A stretch of 40,297 bases of DNA from a virus. The position numbers and the translations under genes are program-made. Where the stretch lies: IMG/VR virus record IMGVR_UViG_3300020407_000009, positions 1 to 40,297 of that record, one strand, 5' to 3'. Every line of letters starts with the position of its first letter. The first letter of the stretch is position 1. A model generated the notes under the pieces. The model ran no database searches, was not told where the DNA came from, and saw only the letters and a list, made by a program, of their open reading frames with translations. Shown piece by piece: positions 3,834 to 14,809 of the stretch.

Positions 3834-5813
3834 TCAGCCCTCCTGCCCGTCGGTGGTCCTGGTGGTGTCGAAGTCGGCCAGGGTCTTGCCGTCTTCCAGC
3901 GCGGCCTTGAGCCACTTCGGCTGCAGGCCGCGGCCCGACCACGTTTCGCCGGTGGCAGGGTTGCGGTAGCGCACGCCGGGCTTGCGGGTGCTGGGGCTGG
4001 CGGCCTGGTTGGCATGGGTGGCCATGAATACTTCGGTGGCGTCGGCCGGCTTCGGCTCGGGGGCACCGCGCTTGCGCTGCTCGGCTTTCAGTGCGATGTC
4101 GGCTTCGACTTCGGCTTGCTCGCGCACGGCGTCGAGGTCGATGCCGTAGTGCTCGGCCAGCACCAGGCCATCGTGTCGCCCGGCGAGGCCCTGTTCCAGC
4201 GGGTCACGGTCTGTCAGCGGCTCAGCGATCACCAGTTCGATCAGCAGCTGGCCCAGCATGCGCGCGTCGTCCGGGTTGTCGGGGTCGCTGTTGTTGATGC
4301 GATCCATCAGCCCTTCCAGCTTGGGATGACCAGCGGCGTCTTTGCACTCGGGGTCATGCGTCAGCAGCACCAGTTTGATGGCCTCGTAGCTGGCGTTGTC
4401 GTAGGCGATCTGCGCCGCCATCTTCAGGCCGATGACGGGCAGTTCGCCCTGCGACAGGCAGGCGTGCAGCTGCTGGAAGGCCAGGCGGCCGATGGCCGCA
4501 TCGCGGACCGTGGACAGGAACTGCACGCTCTGCTGGTCAGTCAGGGGCTTCAGCTTGGCTTCGGGCGACGCCTTTCGCGCACTGCCACCTACCGCGCTGT
4601 CATCGTCATCGCCGCTGTCTTGCACCTGGCCATGTAGCAGCCCCAGCTTGCGCAGCTCAGCCTCTACCAGCTCCCGGCTCACCAGCTCGTGCAGCTTGCC
4701 GTCGCGCTCCACCACGTGCACGTCGGCCGCGGTGAACGTGATGATCTCGCGCAGCGGCCGCTTGTCCGGTGTCATGGTGATCGCCGGCCGGTCGAGGTTG
4801 CGCCAGTCGCCGTACACATAGTCGGCATACGGCATCACCTTCCGCCCCTGCTCTTCATCCAGCACCTGCTTGCCATCCGCCCGCGCCTTGTCGATGGCCA
4901 GCTGCAGGTGCTCGGCCTTCTTCGCCGCAAAGCACTCGCGGTCCTGGCACTGATCGCTGACCGCCACCTGGTCATCGAACAGGCTGGCCGTGCCAGCGCC
5001 GGTGCGCTTCGGGCAGCTGGTGCACGCACCGGCCACCGTGTACACCGCGCGGATGTCGAAGGGCGCGCTAGCCAGGTCCAGCATGAATTCCTTGTGCAGC
5101 ATCTGCACCGTCTGCCGGTAGCTCAGCGCCTCACCGCCCCAGCCCTGCAGCACCAGGGCCAGCGCCTGGCGCTGCAGCTCGTGGTGGGGCAGGGTGGCCA
5201 GCGCCATGGCCACGCTGGCGCTGATCTTGTCGTCGTAGCAGGCGGTGCGGGCTTCCTGGCACAGCGCGCACAGCTTCAAGCGGTTGTAGACGTAGCGGCG
5301 GCTCTTGCCGATGCGGGCCGCGATCTCGTCCGCGTTCGCGTAGCCCTGCAGGCCGTTCTCCTTGCGCAGCAGGGCCTCATAGCCCTCGGCCTCTTCCAGC
5401 GGGTGCAGGCCTTCGCGCTGCAGGTTCTCGATGAGCTGCACTTCCAGCACTTCGAGGTCGGTCATGGCCTTGACGATCACGGCCACGTACTCCATCGCGG
5501 GCAGGGTGCGGTCTTCCTCGCCATCGACGGCCAGGCGCAGCTCGCCGCTGGCCAGCCACCGGCGCTCACCGGCCACGATCTCGTAAGGGGGCACGCCATT
5601 GGTGGGCGTGTGGGCCGGGTGCGGCCGCACGTTGATGGGCGCCAGCTGGCCGTGGGCGCGCATGCTGGTGCCCAGGTCGAACAGGCCGGCGGGCGTGAAG
5701 CGCGCGCGGCGCATGGCCTGGGCCGGCGTGCTGCTGGGCGCCAGCAGATTGCGCGGCACGACCATGGCGCCGTCGATCGCGGCCCGCTGGGGGATATCGG
5801 AAAGGTCGGACAT
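3834..5813 (-). CDS. ParB-like nuclease/partition protein with C-terminal H-NS-type DNA-binding domain
   Basis: The 659-residue protein opens with a ParB/Srx-type domain: GERRWLA near residue 83, then box II LIENLQREGLHPLEEAEGYE. A helix-turn-helix follows (ADEIAARIGKSRRYVYNRLK). A Cys cluster (ACTSCPKR and CQDREC) precedes a long middle region. The last 40 or so residues (615-648) read RYRNPATGETWSGRGLQPKW and onward, the consensus of the H-NS C-terminal AT-hook-like domain with its GRG motif. ATG 5813 has GGAGA upstream; an alternative ATG at 5834 would add 7 residues. No parA or plasmid features are present, so a role in early phage DNA handling or host regulation is more likely than plasmid partition. 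Confidence 0.9.
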   Translation of the reverse strand: MSDLSDIPQRAAIDGAMVVPRNLLAPSSTPAQAMRRARFTPAGLFDLGTSMRAHGQLAPINVRPHPAHTPTNGVPPYEIVAGERRWLASGELRLAVDGEEDRTLPAMEYVAVIVKAMTDLEVLEVQLIENLQREGLHPLEEAEGYEALLRKENGLQGYANADEIAARIGKSRRYVYNRLKLCALCQEARTACYDDKISASVAMALATLPHHELQRQALALVLQGWGGEALSYRQTVQMLHKEFMLDLASAPFDIRAVYTVAGACTSCPKRTGAGTASLFDDQVAVSDQCQDRECFAAKKAEHLQLAIDKARADGKQVLDEEQGRKVMPYADYVYGDWRNLDRPAITMTPDKRPLREIITFTAADVHVVERDGKLHELVSRELVEAELRKLGLLHGQVQDSGDDDDSAVGGSARKASPEAKLKPLTDQQSVQFLSTVRDAAIGRLAFQQLHACLSQGELPVIGLKMAAQIAYDNASYEAIKLVLLTHDPECKDAAGHPKLEGLMDRINNSDPDNPDDARMLGQLLIELVIAEPLTDRDPLEQGLAGRHDGLVLAEHYGIDLDAVREQAEVEADIALKAEQRKRGAPEPKPADATEVFMATHANQAASPSTRKPGVRYRNPATGETWSGRGLQPKWLKAALEDGKTLADFDTTRTTDGQEG

Positions 5814-5833
5814 GGGGGATCTCCGGCCGGCCA

Positions 5834-6142
5834 TCAGTCGTCGTCACGGTCGCCGCTGGCCAGGCGTTTGCGGTCGACCGTGGGTGCCGCGGGCGGGGCC
5901 GGCGGCGGGTAGTGGTGGGCGCGCGCCGGCGGGGGCTCGGGGCGCGTGACGGGGGTGCGGCGCACCAGGCGCGCCGCGGTGCCGATGACGTGGCCGCGCG
6001 ACTGCAGCCAGGCCACCGTGTGCACCAGGCGGCAGCGCACGGGGTCGGTCAGCGTGTCGGCCAGCGTCTCGGGCCAGCCGGGGCGGCGGATGGCCAGCCA
6101 CGCGGCCTGCAGCTGCTCGGGCGTGGGATCGGGGCGGGCCAT
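5834..6142 (-). CDS. Hypothetical early phage protein
   Basis: A 102-residue frame. The first 60 residues (TPEQLQAAWLAIRRPGWPETLADTL and onward) look helical and folded, while the C-terminus is Pro/Ala-rich and ends in an acidic tail. It lies 4 bases after the preceding gene, and its stop shares an A with a possible upstream ATG of the ParB-like gene (TGATG). The strict spacing supports coding. Function unknown. Confidence 0.6.
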   Translation of the reverse strand: MARPDPTPEQLQAAWLAIRRPGWPETLADTLTDPVRCRLVHTVAWLQSRGHVIGTAARLVRRTPVTRPEPPPARAHHYPPPAPPAAPTVDRKRLASGDRDDD

Positions 6143-11264: not shown

Positions 11265-13850
11265 GTGGCCAAGGATCTATCCGACGTCATTCGGCAGATG
11301 GCGGCGCGGGGCATTCACGTGCCCGCGTCGGTCGATCTGCAGGGCGCCTTCACCAAGTACGTTCGCTTCAGGCCCGATGGTGAGAAGCGGGCGAAGAAGA
11401 CCGCGTGGGTGCGGCTGTTCGAGTTCAAGACCGCGAGCGGCGCCGTGTACATCACCGGCGCCTTCGGCGTGCGTGGCGACACCTACGACGTCGAGGCCAC
11501 GCACACCGACTGGTCACCGGCCGAGCGCGCCGACTACCTGGAAAAGCGCAAGGCCGCCCAGCGGGCCGAGCAGGCCGAGCGGGCGCAGGCCGCGGAGTCG
11601 GCGGCACAGAAGGCCGCGCGCATGTGGAAGAGCGGGCGCGACTTCGGCCCCGACATGCAGCACCCCTACCTTGAGACCAAACGGGTAGGGGCCTTCGGCG
11701 TGCGGCTGGGCTTCAACCAGCAGCTGCTGGTGCCGCTGCGCGACGTGGTGGGCGAGCTGAAAGGCCTGCAGTACATCGGGCCCGCTGGTGACAAGATCTT
11801 CGGCACCGGCACGGCCAAGGAAGGGCATTCGCACCTGGTCGGCCAGATCACCGACAAGCATCCGATCGCTTTCGGTGAGGGCTACGCCACCTGCGCCAGT
11901 GCACACATGGCCACGGGCTGGCCGGTGGTCACCTGCTTCGACGCTGGCAACCTGGCGCCGGTGATGGCGGCCTACCGACGGCTGTACCCCGATCACCCGA
12001 TGCTGGTGCTGGCCGACGATGACCGGCACCTGCTGCAGCGGCTGTCTGAGCGGCTGGCCAAGCTCAGCATCGTGTGCACACCGGCCGACCTGCGCGAAAG
12101 CATGTCGCGGCAGTGGCAGATCCCCGATGGCCCCAGCGTGGAGCTCGAAGCCGGCTGGAAGGGCGACGGCGCCGGCGTGATGCGCATCGAAGGCACGCTG
12201 ACGGTCGATGGCCAGGAACAGGCGCTGCTGATCGAGAACGCTGGCCAGGCCAAAGCCCATGCTGCCGCGAAGAAGCACAAGGCGAAGGTGCTCACGCCCT
12301 TCTTCGTCGACCGCGAGTCGAAGCACACGGACTGGAACGACTTGCACGTGAGTGCGGGCCTGGACAGTGTGCGCGAGCAGCTGCTGACGGGGCTGGATGC
12401 GCCCCCTGAGAAGCCGCAGGCCGTGGCCCGCAAGGAAGAGGCCAAAGGCAAGGGCAAGGGCCCCAGTGCGCCGCGCGACGATGGGCCGCCTTTCTTGGAG
12501 CGCTACACGCTGATCTACGGCACCACCACCGTATGGGATGACCACGAAAAGGTGATCATCCGGCTCGAAAGCCTGAAAGTCGCCTACGGCAAGCTGGTGG
12601 ACTGGTGGCTGCAGCACGAAGACCGCCGCATGGTGCCCGAGCGCAACGTGGTCTTCGACCCCACGGGGCGCGCCAGGCCGCCGGAGTTCGTCAACCTCTT
12701 CGACCGGCTGCCGATCGAGCCGATGCCTTATGCCGAGTCGAAGTGCTCGGCCATCCTGGGCCACCTGTGGAACCTGTGCGATGACAACGCCGAGCTGTGC
12801 CACTGGCTGACGGCCTGGCTGGCCTACCCACTGCAGCGGCCCGGCGCCAAGATGCGCACGGCGCTGGTGCTGCACGGCCGCACCGAGGGCACGGGCAAGA
12901 GCAAGCTCGGCGAGATCATGCGGCGAATCTATGGCCGCTACTGCACCAGCGTCGGCCAGGCCGAGCTGCAGCGCGACTTCAACGACTGGATCAGCGCCAA
13001 GCTGTTCATCATCGCCGAAGAGGTGGTGAGCCGACAGGACCGCGCGCACCACCAGGGCATGCTGCAGGCGCTGATCACGCAGCCCACGGTGCAGATCAAC
13101 ACCAAGAACATGCCCATCCGTGAAGAGGCTAACCACGCCAACTTCATGTTCTTGAGCAACAGCCAGATCCCGATGTTGCTGAACCCGCGTGACCGCCGCT
13201 ACACGGTGGTCCGCGTCGAGCGGCAGCACCCGGCGGCCTACTTTCAGGCCATCGATGCCGAGCTGGACAACGGCGGCGCCGAAGCGTTCCTGGATTACCT
13301 GCTGCGCTACGACCTGAAGGGTTTCAACGAGTTCACCAGGCCGTACGAAAACAAGGACCGCATGCACCTGATCACGCTGGGCATGCAGGTCGACCAGCGC
13401 TTCTTCGCGTACTGGCACAAGGGGCACGCCGGCGTGCCGTTCTGCTGCTGCCCGGCCAGCGACCTGTACGAAGCCTTCAAGGCCTGGTGCAGGCTTAACG
13501 GCGAGCGCTACGTGCCCAACGGCACCGCCTTCGGCCGCACCATGGCCGAAGAGCTGGAACGCCTGGGCGCGCCGCCGAAGGCGACCAAGCGCTATCTGGG
13601 CTACAGCGACAAGCAGATCGCCGATGCCGACTTCAAGGATGACCCGCAAAAGCGCCAGGGCGTCGTGTACCTGGTGCCGCCGGAGCATGAGCTGCGCCGC
13701 GCGCGGGTGCTCGATGACGAAGCGCCGGCCGAGCCGCCGCCCGATGAGCCGCTGCCCGAACTGGCGGACATGGCCTACGTCAACGGCTGCATCAAGCGTT
13801 TCCAGGTCGGTCTGGCCGAGCTGCGGGCCAGCGCGCGGAGGGGCATGTGA
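11265..13850 (+). CDS. TOPRIM primase / SF3-type replicative helicase
   Basis: The 861-residue protein is the phage replication initiator. Residues 200-260 form a TOPRIM-like domain (PIAFGEGYATCASAHMATGW, later VLADDD), so it can probably synthesise primers. The C-terminal half has an SF3/D5-type ATPase: Walker A GRTEGTGKSKL near residue 540, Walker B KLFIIAEEV, sensor FLSNSQIP and arginine finger NPRDRRYTVVRVE. This part resembles the NrS-1/D5-like helicase family. The start is GTG 11265 with AAGG upstream. The middle 340-470 linker is charged. It is followed by a large dyad that may be its origin. Confidence 0.92.
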   Translation: MAKDLSDVIRQMAARGIHVPASVDLQGAFTKYVRFRPDGEKRAKKTAWVRLFEFKTASGAVYITGAFGVRGDTYDVEATHTDWSPAERADYLEKRKAAQRAEQAERAQAAESAAQKAARMWKSGRDFGPDMQHPYLETKRVGAFGVRLGFNQQLLVPLRDVVGELKGLQYIGPAGDKIFGTGTAKEGHSHLVGQITDKHPIAFGEGYATCASAHMATGWPVVTCFDAGNLAPVMAAYRRLYPDHPMLVLADDDRHLLQRLSERLAKLSIVCTPADLRESMSRQWQIPDGPSVELEAGWKGDGAGVMRIEGTLTVDGQEQALLIENAGQAKAHAAAKKHKAKVLTPFFVDRESKHTDWNDLHVSAGLDSVREQLLTGLDAPPEKPQAVARKEEAKGKGKGPSAPRDDGPPFLERYTLIYGTTTVWDDHEKVIIRLESLKVAYGKLVDWWLQHEDRRMVPERNVVFDPTGRARPPEFVNLFDRLPIEPMPYAESKCSAILGHLWNLCDDNAELCHWLTAWLAYPLQRPGAKMRTALVLHGRTEGTGKSKLGEIMRRIYGRYCTSVGQAELQRDFNDWISAKLFIIAEEVVSRQDRAHHQGMLQALITQPTVQINTKNMPIREEANHANFMFLSNSQIPMLLNPRDRRYTVVRVERQHPAAYFQAIDAELDNGGAEAFLDYLLRYDLKGFNEFTRPYENKDRMHLITLGMQVDQRFFAYWHKGHAGVPFCCCPASDLYEAFKAWCRLNGERYVPNGTAFGRTMAEELERLGAPPKATKRYLGYSDKQIADADFKDDPQKRQGVVYLVPPEHELRRARVLDDEAPAEPPPDEPLPELADMAYVNGCIKRFQVGLAELRASARRGM

Positions 13851-13861
13851 TGCGCCGCCTC

Positions 13862-14172
13862 TGTGAAGGGCTGCGAAGGCTCGTTTGCACAACCCATACC
13901 GCTGCAAGCCGCGCCAGTGCTTGCTTTGCGGCCGGTGTGATGGGTGTGAAGGGTTGCGTAAAGGCTAATGCGCGCGAGGCAGCTACGGGGGCTCATGTAC
14001 GGCAGGCAACGCAGGGCGTGTGCACGCACCTGTGCGGCGCCACTGCGCGGATGGATCGCGGGGAGAACATTCAATTCAAACCCTTCACACTCATCACACC
14101 AGCTGCAAAGCCAATGTTTATGCGGCTTCCAGCGGTATGGGTTTGTCGAAAGTGCCTTCACCACCCATCACA
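13862..14172. repeat. 311-bp imperfect dyad with four iteron-like copies; candidate replication origin
   Basis: Two arms of about 100 bp are arranged as inverted repeats about a common centre near 14017, with no indels between matched blocks. Blocks: TGTGAAGGGCTGCGAAGGC (13862-13880) against 14154-14172; AACCCATACCGCTGCAAGCC (13891-13910) against 14124-14143, one mismatch; TGTGATGGGTGTGAAGGG (13936-13953) against 14081-14098, one mismatch. The TGTGATGGG-GTGAAGG unit thus occurs four times, two per arm. No convincing gene lies in 13851-14184. Its place directly after the primase/helicase gene suggests an origin; a structured RNA or a mobile inverted-repeat element are alternatives. Confidence 0.75.
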
Positions 14173-14184
14173 GCGGGGTCAGTC

Positions 14185-14436
14185 ATGAGGCCCAGGGGTG
14201 AAGTGGCTGAAGCGCTGCTGAAAGCGGCCCAGCAAGGGCCTGCCACGGTGCGTGAGCTGTGCGAGCGCGCGAGGGTGGCCTACGGGGCAGGGCGGTACAC
14301 GGCCAGCCGCCTGGTGGCGCGTCGTGATCTGGTGGCCCAGGGCGAGGGCCGACCTGCGGTGCTGGCCCTGCCACAGCCCGGCGCGGTGGCACCGCTGACG
14401 CTGGCGATGATGGGGAGGCTGCACGATGGCACGTGA
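14185..14436 (+). CDS. Small winged-helix-like protein
   Basis: The 83-residue product reads as a compact helix-turn-helix: EVAEALLKAAQQGPATVREL then CERARVAYGAGRYTASRLVA and a short beta wing with VLALPQP. It is probably DNA-binding. ATG 14185 follows the dyad directly, and the stop overlaps the next gene by 11 bases. The Shine-Dalgarno sequence is weak. It could bind the adjoining repeat region or assist the late regulator; neither is shown. Confidence 0.65.
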   Translation: MRPRGEVAEALLKAAQQGPATVRELCERARVAYGAGRYTASRLVARRDLVAQGEGRPAVLALPQPGAVAPLTLAMMGRLHDGT

Positions 14437-14809
14437 CGCGCGTATCGAGCACCGGCTGCAGCGCTGGGCTCAATGGATCACCATCGGCGACGGCAGCGGG
14501 TATGCAGCACGCAGCGTGCTGCACCCGGAGTGGTCACCGCCCACCAAGGGCAGCACGCCGACCCTCAAGGTGGGCGCGGCCAGCGACGTGCGCGAGACCC
14601 ATCGCGCTGTGGGCCGGCTGAGCATGCGCCAGGCCAACACGGTGGTGGTGCACTACGTGATGCGGCTGCCGATCGCGGAGCAGGCGCTGCGGCTGGAATG
14701 TGCCGAGCGCACGGTGTTCGAGCGCATCGACGATGCCCATCGACGCCTGGCAGCGATGCTGTATGACCGCGATGAAGAAGAGTTTTGCAACATGCAGTCG
14801 GAGGGGTAG
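14426..14809 (+). CDS. Putative late-gene regulator (antiterminator Q-like)
   Basis: The 127-residue protein contains a C-terminal helix-turn-helix resembling sigma region 4: PIAEQALRLECAERTVFERI then DDAHRRLAAML. The N-terminal part has IEHRLQRWAQWITIGDGSGY, a segment I associate with small regulators placed just before phage late operons. Position supports a late regulator: it is the last early gene and is followed by a hairpin pair and a terminator, then all late genes. Whether it works as an antiterminator or as a transcription activator cannot be decided here. Confidence 0.6.
   Translation: MARDARIEHRLQRWAQWITIGDGSGYAARSVLHPEWSPPTKGSTPTLKVGAASDVRETHRAVGRLSMRQANTVVVHYVMRLPIAEQALRLECAERTVFERIDDAHRRLAAMLYDRDEEEFCNMQSEG

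Follow-up and report, generated by a model that had tools for sequence, protein, structure and literature searches.

An inverted array of short iterons directly behind a primase-helicase gene is very probably the replication origin of the phage studied here, an iteron origin that would be bound by the phage's own primase-helicase and is organised like PICI/SaPI and P4 origins. We read the site in this way because iteron dyads also stand behind related helicases, because the iterons co-vary with the helicase C-terminus and because P4, PICIs and Sfi21 provide precedents. The same lines of evidence, with arrays in most of 165 loci, support the original prediction of an iteron origin beside the initiator gene. 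On sequence evidence, this candidate origin of a full-size temperate phage is of PICI/P4 type and belongs to a family of phage origins that is widespread. No description of this family was found in the literature searched, which covered a minority of subscription journals.

The helicase gene and the dyad behind it

The DNA analyzed here (the window) is an IMG/VR virus record of 40,297 bases with a tRNA-Arg by the integrase, a CII-like regulator, the primase-helicase and genes for a large terminase and a tail protein. The terminase has gpA ATPase and nuclease domains, and the tail protein is GPZ-like. The tRNA-Arg (5-81) lies directly beside the phage integrase gene (170-1423), suggesting an attachment site, and a D12-class N6-adenine DNA methyltransferase is encoded nearby at 1572-2522 on the minus strand. 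A 666-aa protein encoded at 3834-5834, also on the minus strand, fuses ParB_N and HTH_ParB to a C-terminal H-NS DNA-binding domain; its ParB half has relatives in Acidovorax phage Aval and Variovorax phage VarioGold. GC skew along the window showed no turning point at 14 kb.

Pfam matches of the primase-helicase were to DUF5906 (3e-19) and Toprim_3 (1e-7). An AlphaFold model of residues 401-861 (mean pLDDT 87.6) found the C-terminal region of NrS-1 (6k9c, 2e-17) as the closest solved structure using Foldseek, as well as the SaPI5 primase-helicase (7ola, 2.5e-9) and poxvirus D5-type helicases. In the model, the helix-helix-strand-strand region at the C-terminus resembles a winged helix, a tentative assignment: Pfam Pox_D5 matched this region below the cutoff (E 0.012), and a Foldseek search with the C-terminal piece alone gave no match at E <1. 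The helicase stop at 13850 and the next plausible start at 14186 leave a gap of about 335 bp, in which the dyad begins 8 nt past the stop. A 138-aa frame overlapping this gap (14020-14436) had no match in Pfam or PHROGs.

The two arms of the dyad are 98 nt each, separated by 123 nt, and complementary without gaps at 75 of 98 positions (77%). Around a centre at 14017, 87 of 167 symmetric pairs match, compared with at most 56 in neighbouring registers, confirming the coordinates and the indel-free centre near 14017 of the original prediction. When all dyad centres of the 40-kb window were scanned, the runner-up reached 51/98 and the 99.9th percentile 48. The motif had been described as occurring in four copies; iterons are indeed present, but the unit is the 9-nt TGTGAWGGG, with six exact or one-mismatch copies plus degenerate and inverted ones. 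The features are as follows.

11265-13850, plus strand: primase-helicase, presumed initiator, with Toprim_3 (203-269), DUF5906/D5-type AAA+ helicase and a C-terminal winged-helix-like region (~729-802)
13858-13955, plus strand: left arm of the dyad, which pairs with the right arm at 75/98 positions without gaps
13862-13870, plus strand: iteron F1, TGTGAAGGG, offset -74 from the inner pair
13872-13880, plus strand: degenerate iteron F2, TGCGAAGGC, two mismatches, offset -64, which is a modal right-arm offset of the family
13893-13901, minus strand: single inverted degenerate iteron, CGGTATGGG, offset -43, identical in both arms
13936-13944, plus strand: inner iteron F3, TGTGATGGG
13945-13953, plus strand: inner iteron F4, TGTGAAGGG, in 9-nt tandem with F3
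13956-14078, no strand: spacer between the arms, presumed to be where melting and loading occur; includes the alternating purine-pyrimidine run GCGTGTGCACGCAC
14079-14176, minus strand: right arm of the dyad, complementary to the left arm
14081-14089, minus strand: inner iteron, TGTGAAGGG, mirroring F4
14090-14098, minus strand: inner iteron, TGTGATGAG, mirroring F3
14133-14141, plus strand: single inverted iteron, CGGTATGGG, mirroring 13893-13901
14154-14162, minus strand: degenerate iteron, GGTGAAGGC, mirroring F2
14164-14172, minus strand: iteron, TGTGATGGG, mirroring F1

The exact or one-mismatch copies are those starting at 13862, 13936 and 13945 on the plus strand and at 14081, 14090 and 14164 on the minus strand; those at 13872 and 14154 are degenerate, and the single inverted ones occupy 13893-13901 and 14133-14141. 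Offsets from the inner pair are the same in both arms (forward -74, degenerate forward -64, inverted degenerate -43, forward 0 and +9). Exact TGTGNNGGG occurs 11 times in 40 kb, five of them inside the 311-bp dyad, and the unit forms 9-nt tandems nowhere in the window except in the two inner iteron pairs. Counting 9-mers within the window alone was rejected as a way to tell the dyad from background: the best 9-mer has seven copies at the dyad, which only ties the maximum among the 96 other 500-bp stretches, the window being GC-rich. In-window significance therefore comes from the dyad itself and from the occurrence of the motif in relatives, and family membership of the window rests on layout, motif and position.

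Iteron arrays behind related helicases

DNA-level searches for the dyad gave no homologue in phages or plasmids, and a scan of IMG/VR with the dyad motif gave no match. A search of IMG/VR with CCCATACCGCTGNAAGCC returned six matches (L007-L012), which were near-identical DNA without the helicase and were rejected as chance. The window helicase as sole protein query found no close relative in IMG/VR or genomes, so alignment queries were needed; these collected 80 loci from IMG/VR and 80 from bacterial genomes. Using tblastn, the helicase matched phages S1, H4907, pAN, Turba, KT1 and Mcat6 at 29-40% identity, and short blastn matches to the dyad motif were located, in three phages, exactly in the gap behind the helicase. 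Read directly, the gaps of these phage relatives contain iterons in both orientations at steps of mostly 9 nt: TGTGTTGGG in pAN and Turba, TGTGCAGGG in Mcat6, GTGGTTAGGG-like in KT1 and TCAGACAGA-like in H4907. In Stenotrophomonas phage S1 (L013/L037), iterons at 2469-2740 overlap the start of the annotated gene gp2 (2454-2804), whose frame may be origin-shaped or a misannotation.

For each locus, the 500 bp at the helicase stop and every other 500-bp stretch of that locus were scored by the copy number of their best 9-mer, allowing one mismatch and reading both strands. The original prediction had proposed seeking the repeat unit in relatives. Its DNA sequence is shared by none, but its layout recurs: the helicase-stop stretch tops every other stretch in 79 of 86 IMG/VR and phage loci and in 72 of 79 independent bacterial-genome (prophage) loci, although the loci are mutually related and these locus counts, including those of the spacer-run tests below, are not independent events. 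An iteron dyad is thus found behind the related helicase in most of the 165 loci, rather than being absent from relatives with the same helicase. Arrays mostly hold 9-12 copies of the best 9-mer, compared with mostly 3-4 in the roughly 3,000 stretches of background. In each set, seven loci stay within their own background. Behind the gene of four helicase relatives (L034, L050, L077 and L094) there is no array; these phages may be defective or may have their origin elsewhere.

The usual layout is +++ [-] ++ spacer --- [+] --, with steps of 9 or 12 nt, an outer-to-inner group distance of often 43-45 nt and a spacer of 52-138 bp. Iteron positions are mirrored for 64% of copies versus 41% in shuffled layouts. 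Arrays start a median of 15 nt after the helicase stop, whichever ORF comes next (57 clusters, crude ORF call). Extended complementarity as long as that of the window is rare (77/98 in L075 and 72/98 in L119); for most of 155 loci the best 98-nt arm match is about 42-52, which is chance level, though the iterons persist. The iterons, not a hairpin, therefore appear to be what is kept. Initiator and site lie side by side and would be co-inherited and diverge together, so that the iteron sequence varies between phages while the layout persists.

Across 36 representatives, iteron distance correlated with the distance of helicase residues 735-861 after removal of ATPase-core distance (partial Mantel r 0.385, p 0.001), and little with ATPase sub-regions (0.04-0.09). 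The same 9-mer count was applied to control loci. As a positive control, P4 crr behind alpha gave 9 copies versus a background of 7, and NrS-1 gave 13 copies behind its primase gene versus a background of 5. Four lytic phages with distant homologues, used as negative controls (M6, YSD1, Vibrio H1 and ZP6), gave 3-4 copies, within background. The annotated Sfi21 origin had a best count of 5, below its background maximum of 7, its copies forming weak ++|-- 8-nt pairs. The thirteen CTACACTTT-like 9-mers of NrS-1 (L180) occupy some 400 bp just after the primase stop (4269) and represent a candidate origin for this much-studied primase-polymerase.

Spacer, predicted initiation and other readings of the dyad

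The spacer of the window is not clearly AT-rich (GC 0.62 vs 0.67), and the AT excess of spacers across the family is about 7 points, limited to the half away from the helicase. The window run GCGTGTGCACGCAC (~14016-14030) has a length reached by 1% of equal-length window stretches (p 0.01). In the spacers of 61 of 76 first-set loci, the alternating purine-pyrimidine run is longer than in 95% of stretches of equal size elsewhere in that locus. Such Z-DNA-prone runs recur in the spacers of most relatives, for example at ~5396-5420 in L015 and ~4494-4510 in L016.

A possible course of initiation can be proposed from this layout. The winged-helix-like C-terminal domain of the helicase would bind the iterons of each arm, with one hexamer assembling per arm. 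Since the arms are inverted, the two hexamers would load facing each other on the spacer. They could then melt it, the Toprim domain would prime, and replication would run both ways with recruitment of the host polymerase.

Several other functions could be imagined for such a site. The iterons could form an operator array at which a transcription regulator of the phage turns on the downstream late genes, as the array has early genes on one side and late genes on the other, some phages have small regulator-like ORFs after it and a weak Q-like match is encoded at 14426-14809. However, the arrays follow the helicase irrespective of the next gene, iterons and helicase C-terminus co-vary, the dyad gave no match to a sigma-70-type promoter or to a terminator, and the P4 array of the same type, crr, is an annotated replication element. 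We consider an operator improbable. A partition site (centromere) for the ParB-like protein of 3834-5834 would fit the ParB_N/HTH_ParB/H-NS fusion encoded in the window and the fact that some centromeres are iteron arrays, yet this ParB is 8 kb off, and arrays adjoin the helicase in phages whose inspected neighbourhoods show no ParB, making this function very improbable.

The dyad could also act as an RNA or cruciform element, its long hairpin serving as a terminator, a processing site or a structured RNA. Indeed, the single strand folds 8.6 sd better than shuffles, but such a fold follows from any DNA dyad. There is no U tract and no terminator match, an Rfam search of the window returned the tRNA alone and no family at the dyad, and the arms of most relatives lack the extended complementarity while keeping the iterons; we regard a hairpin function as highly unlikely. 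Finally, the original prediction offered as its alternative that the arms are an inverted duplicate of a small Cys-rich gene, both being readable as NPYR...CxxC. This gains no support from the substitutions: arm differences are spread 4/4/4 over codon positions, with 8 nonsynonymous and 0 synonymous codons. The left reading frame stops with the arm, and iterons of the same kind in relatives give other translations without the peptide. The CxxC peptide arises because TGT recurs every 9 nt, a step that keeps the reading frame, and the chance that a duplicated gene explains the arms seems negligible.

Comparison with known replication origins

The iterons of lambda-type origins sit inside gene O. 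The lambda-like comparison of the original prediction is off, as the window dyad lies after the helicase stop and the helicase is D5/DUF5906-type; P4 and PICIs are the right comparison. Nitratiruptor phage NrS-1, which has a primase-polymerase, differs in its array layout (++++-+---+---), and its N-terminus is, in line with PDB titles, a PrimPol where the window protein has Toprim. In Streptococcus phage Sfi21, the annotated origin (a 302-bp noncoding region) overlaps the end of, and follows, a putative primase gene; the host is Gram-positive and the primase shorter. The Sfi21 origin acts as an independent origin conferring phage-encoded resistance (PMC6356513).

P4 offers a close parallel in layout. 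Located 46 nt beyond the stop of alpha, its crr contains type I iterons that, like the iterons of the window, point both ways and follow 9-nt steps. The P4 ori order FFF-r-FF (-86, -76, -65, -43, 0, +10) fits one arm of L019/L131, the closest relatives of the window (-88, -77, -66, -47, 0, +9), and of L023 within about 4 nt, and the single inverted copy is at -43 in P4 ori, -43 in the window and -45 in L023. Among 360 permuted templates, the P4 order ranked 4th in the window, was best in L019/L131/L017/L023 and fell in the top 1% for 18 of 145 loci including the window. With a median rank of 152 of 360, the idea that every arm equals a P4 ori arm (10/11/22/43/10 steps) was rejected as a general rule and applies to a subset only. 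P4 differs in keeping 4.7 kb between ori and crr, the latter being a direct duplication, whereas the window has two inverted arms at one site. The type I repeat GGTGAACAG also differs from TGTGAWGGG; some relatives (L021 and L105) carry the P4-like TGAACAGT. Comparison of the window helicase with P4 alpha by hhalign gave a probability of 35% (E 4e-4) in an alignment that covers the helicase and ends where the C-terminal domain begins.

In PICIs and SaPIs, as in the window, the origin is directly 3' of the primase-helicase gene and two iteron sets flank a central region (PMC7581432, PMC6092414). The C-terminal domain of SaPI Rep recognises the iteron origin directly downstream of its own gene, and that of Cch2 binds the region downstream of its gene (PMC7581432). 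A rep-ori segment of an E. coli PICI drives plasmid replication (PMC6092414), and DUF5906 proteins have been grouped with mapped PICI origins (PMC10111431). The likeness extends to the helicase model, which resembles the SaPI5 primase-helicase. In this comparison of layout and protein there are also differences: the window comes from a full-size phage, encoding a large terminase and tail proteins, rather than from a satellite; an AT-rich central region would be expected, but the window spacer is not AT-rich; and the window has a long gap-free dyad.

More speculatively, and with considerable doubt, these sites could form a widespread origin class in full-size temperate phages of beta- and gammaproteobacteria, in which two head-to-head P4-ori-like arms load two self-loading primase-helicase hexamers and opening is guided by a conserved Z-prone run in place of an AT-rich stretch; the origins of PICIs and P4 would then be its derivatives or halves. 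The predicted origin, together with the paired iteron and C-terminal-domain data set, may prove useful for phages that mostly have no annotated origin, and it becomes possible to test where the replicon of the satellites came from. This origin organisation has been described as exclusive to PICIs (PMC6092414), and the presence of an organisation of this kind behind a related initiator in about 150 phages and prophages suggests that this exclusivity needs revisiting.
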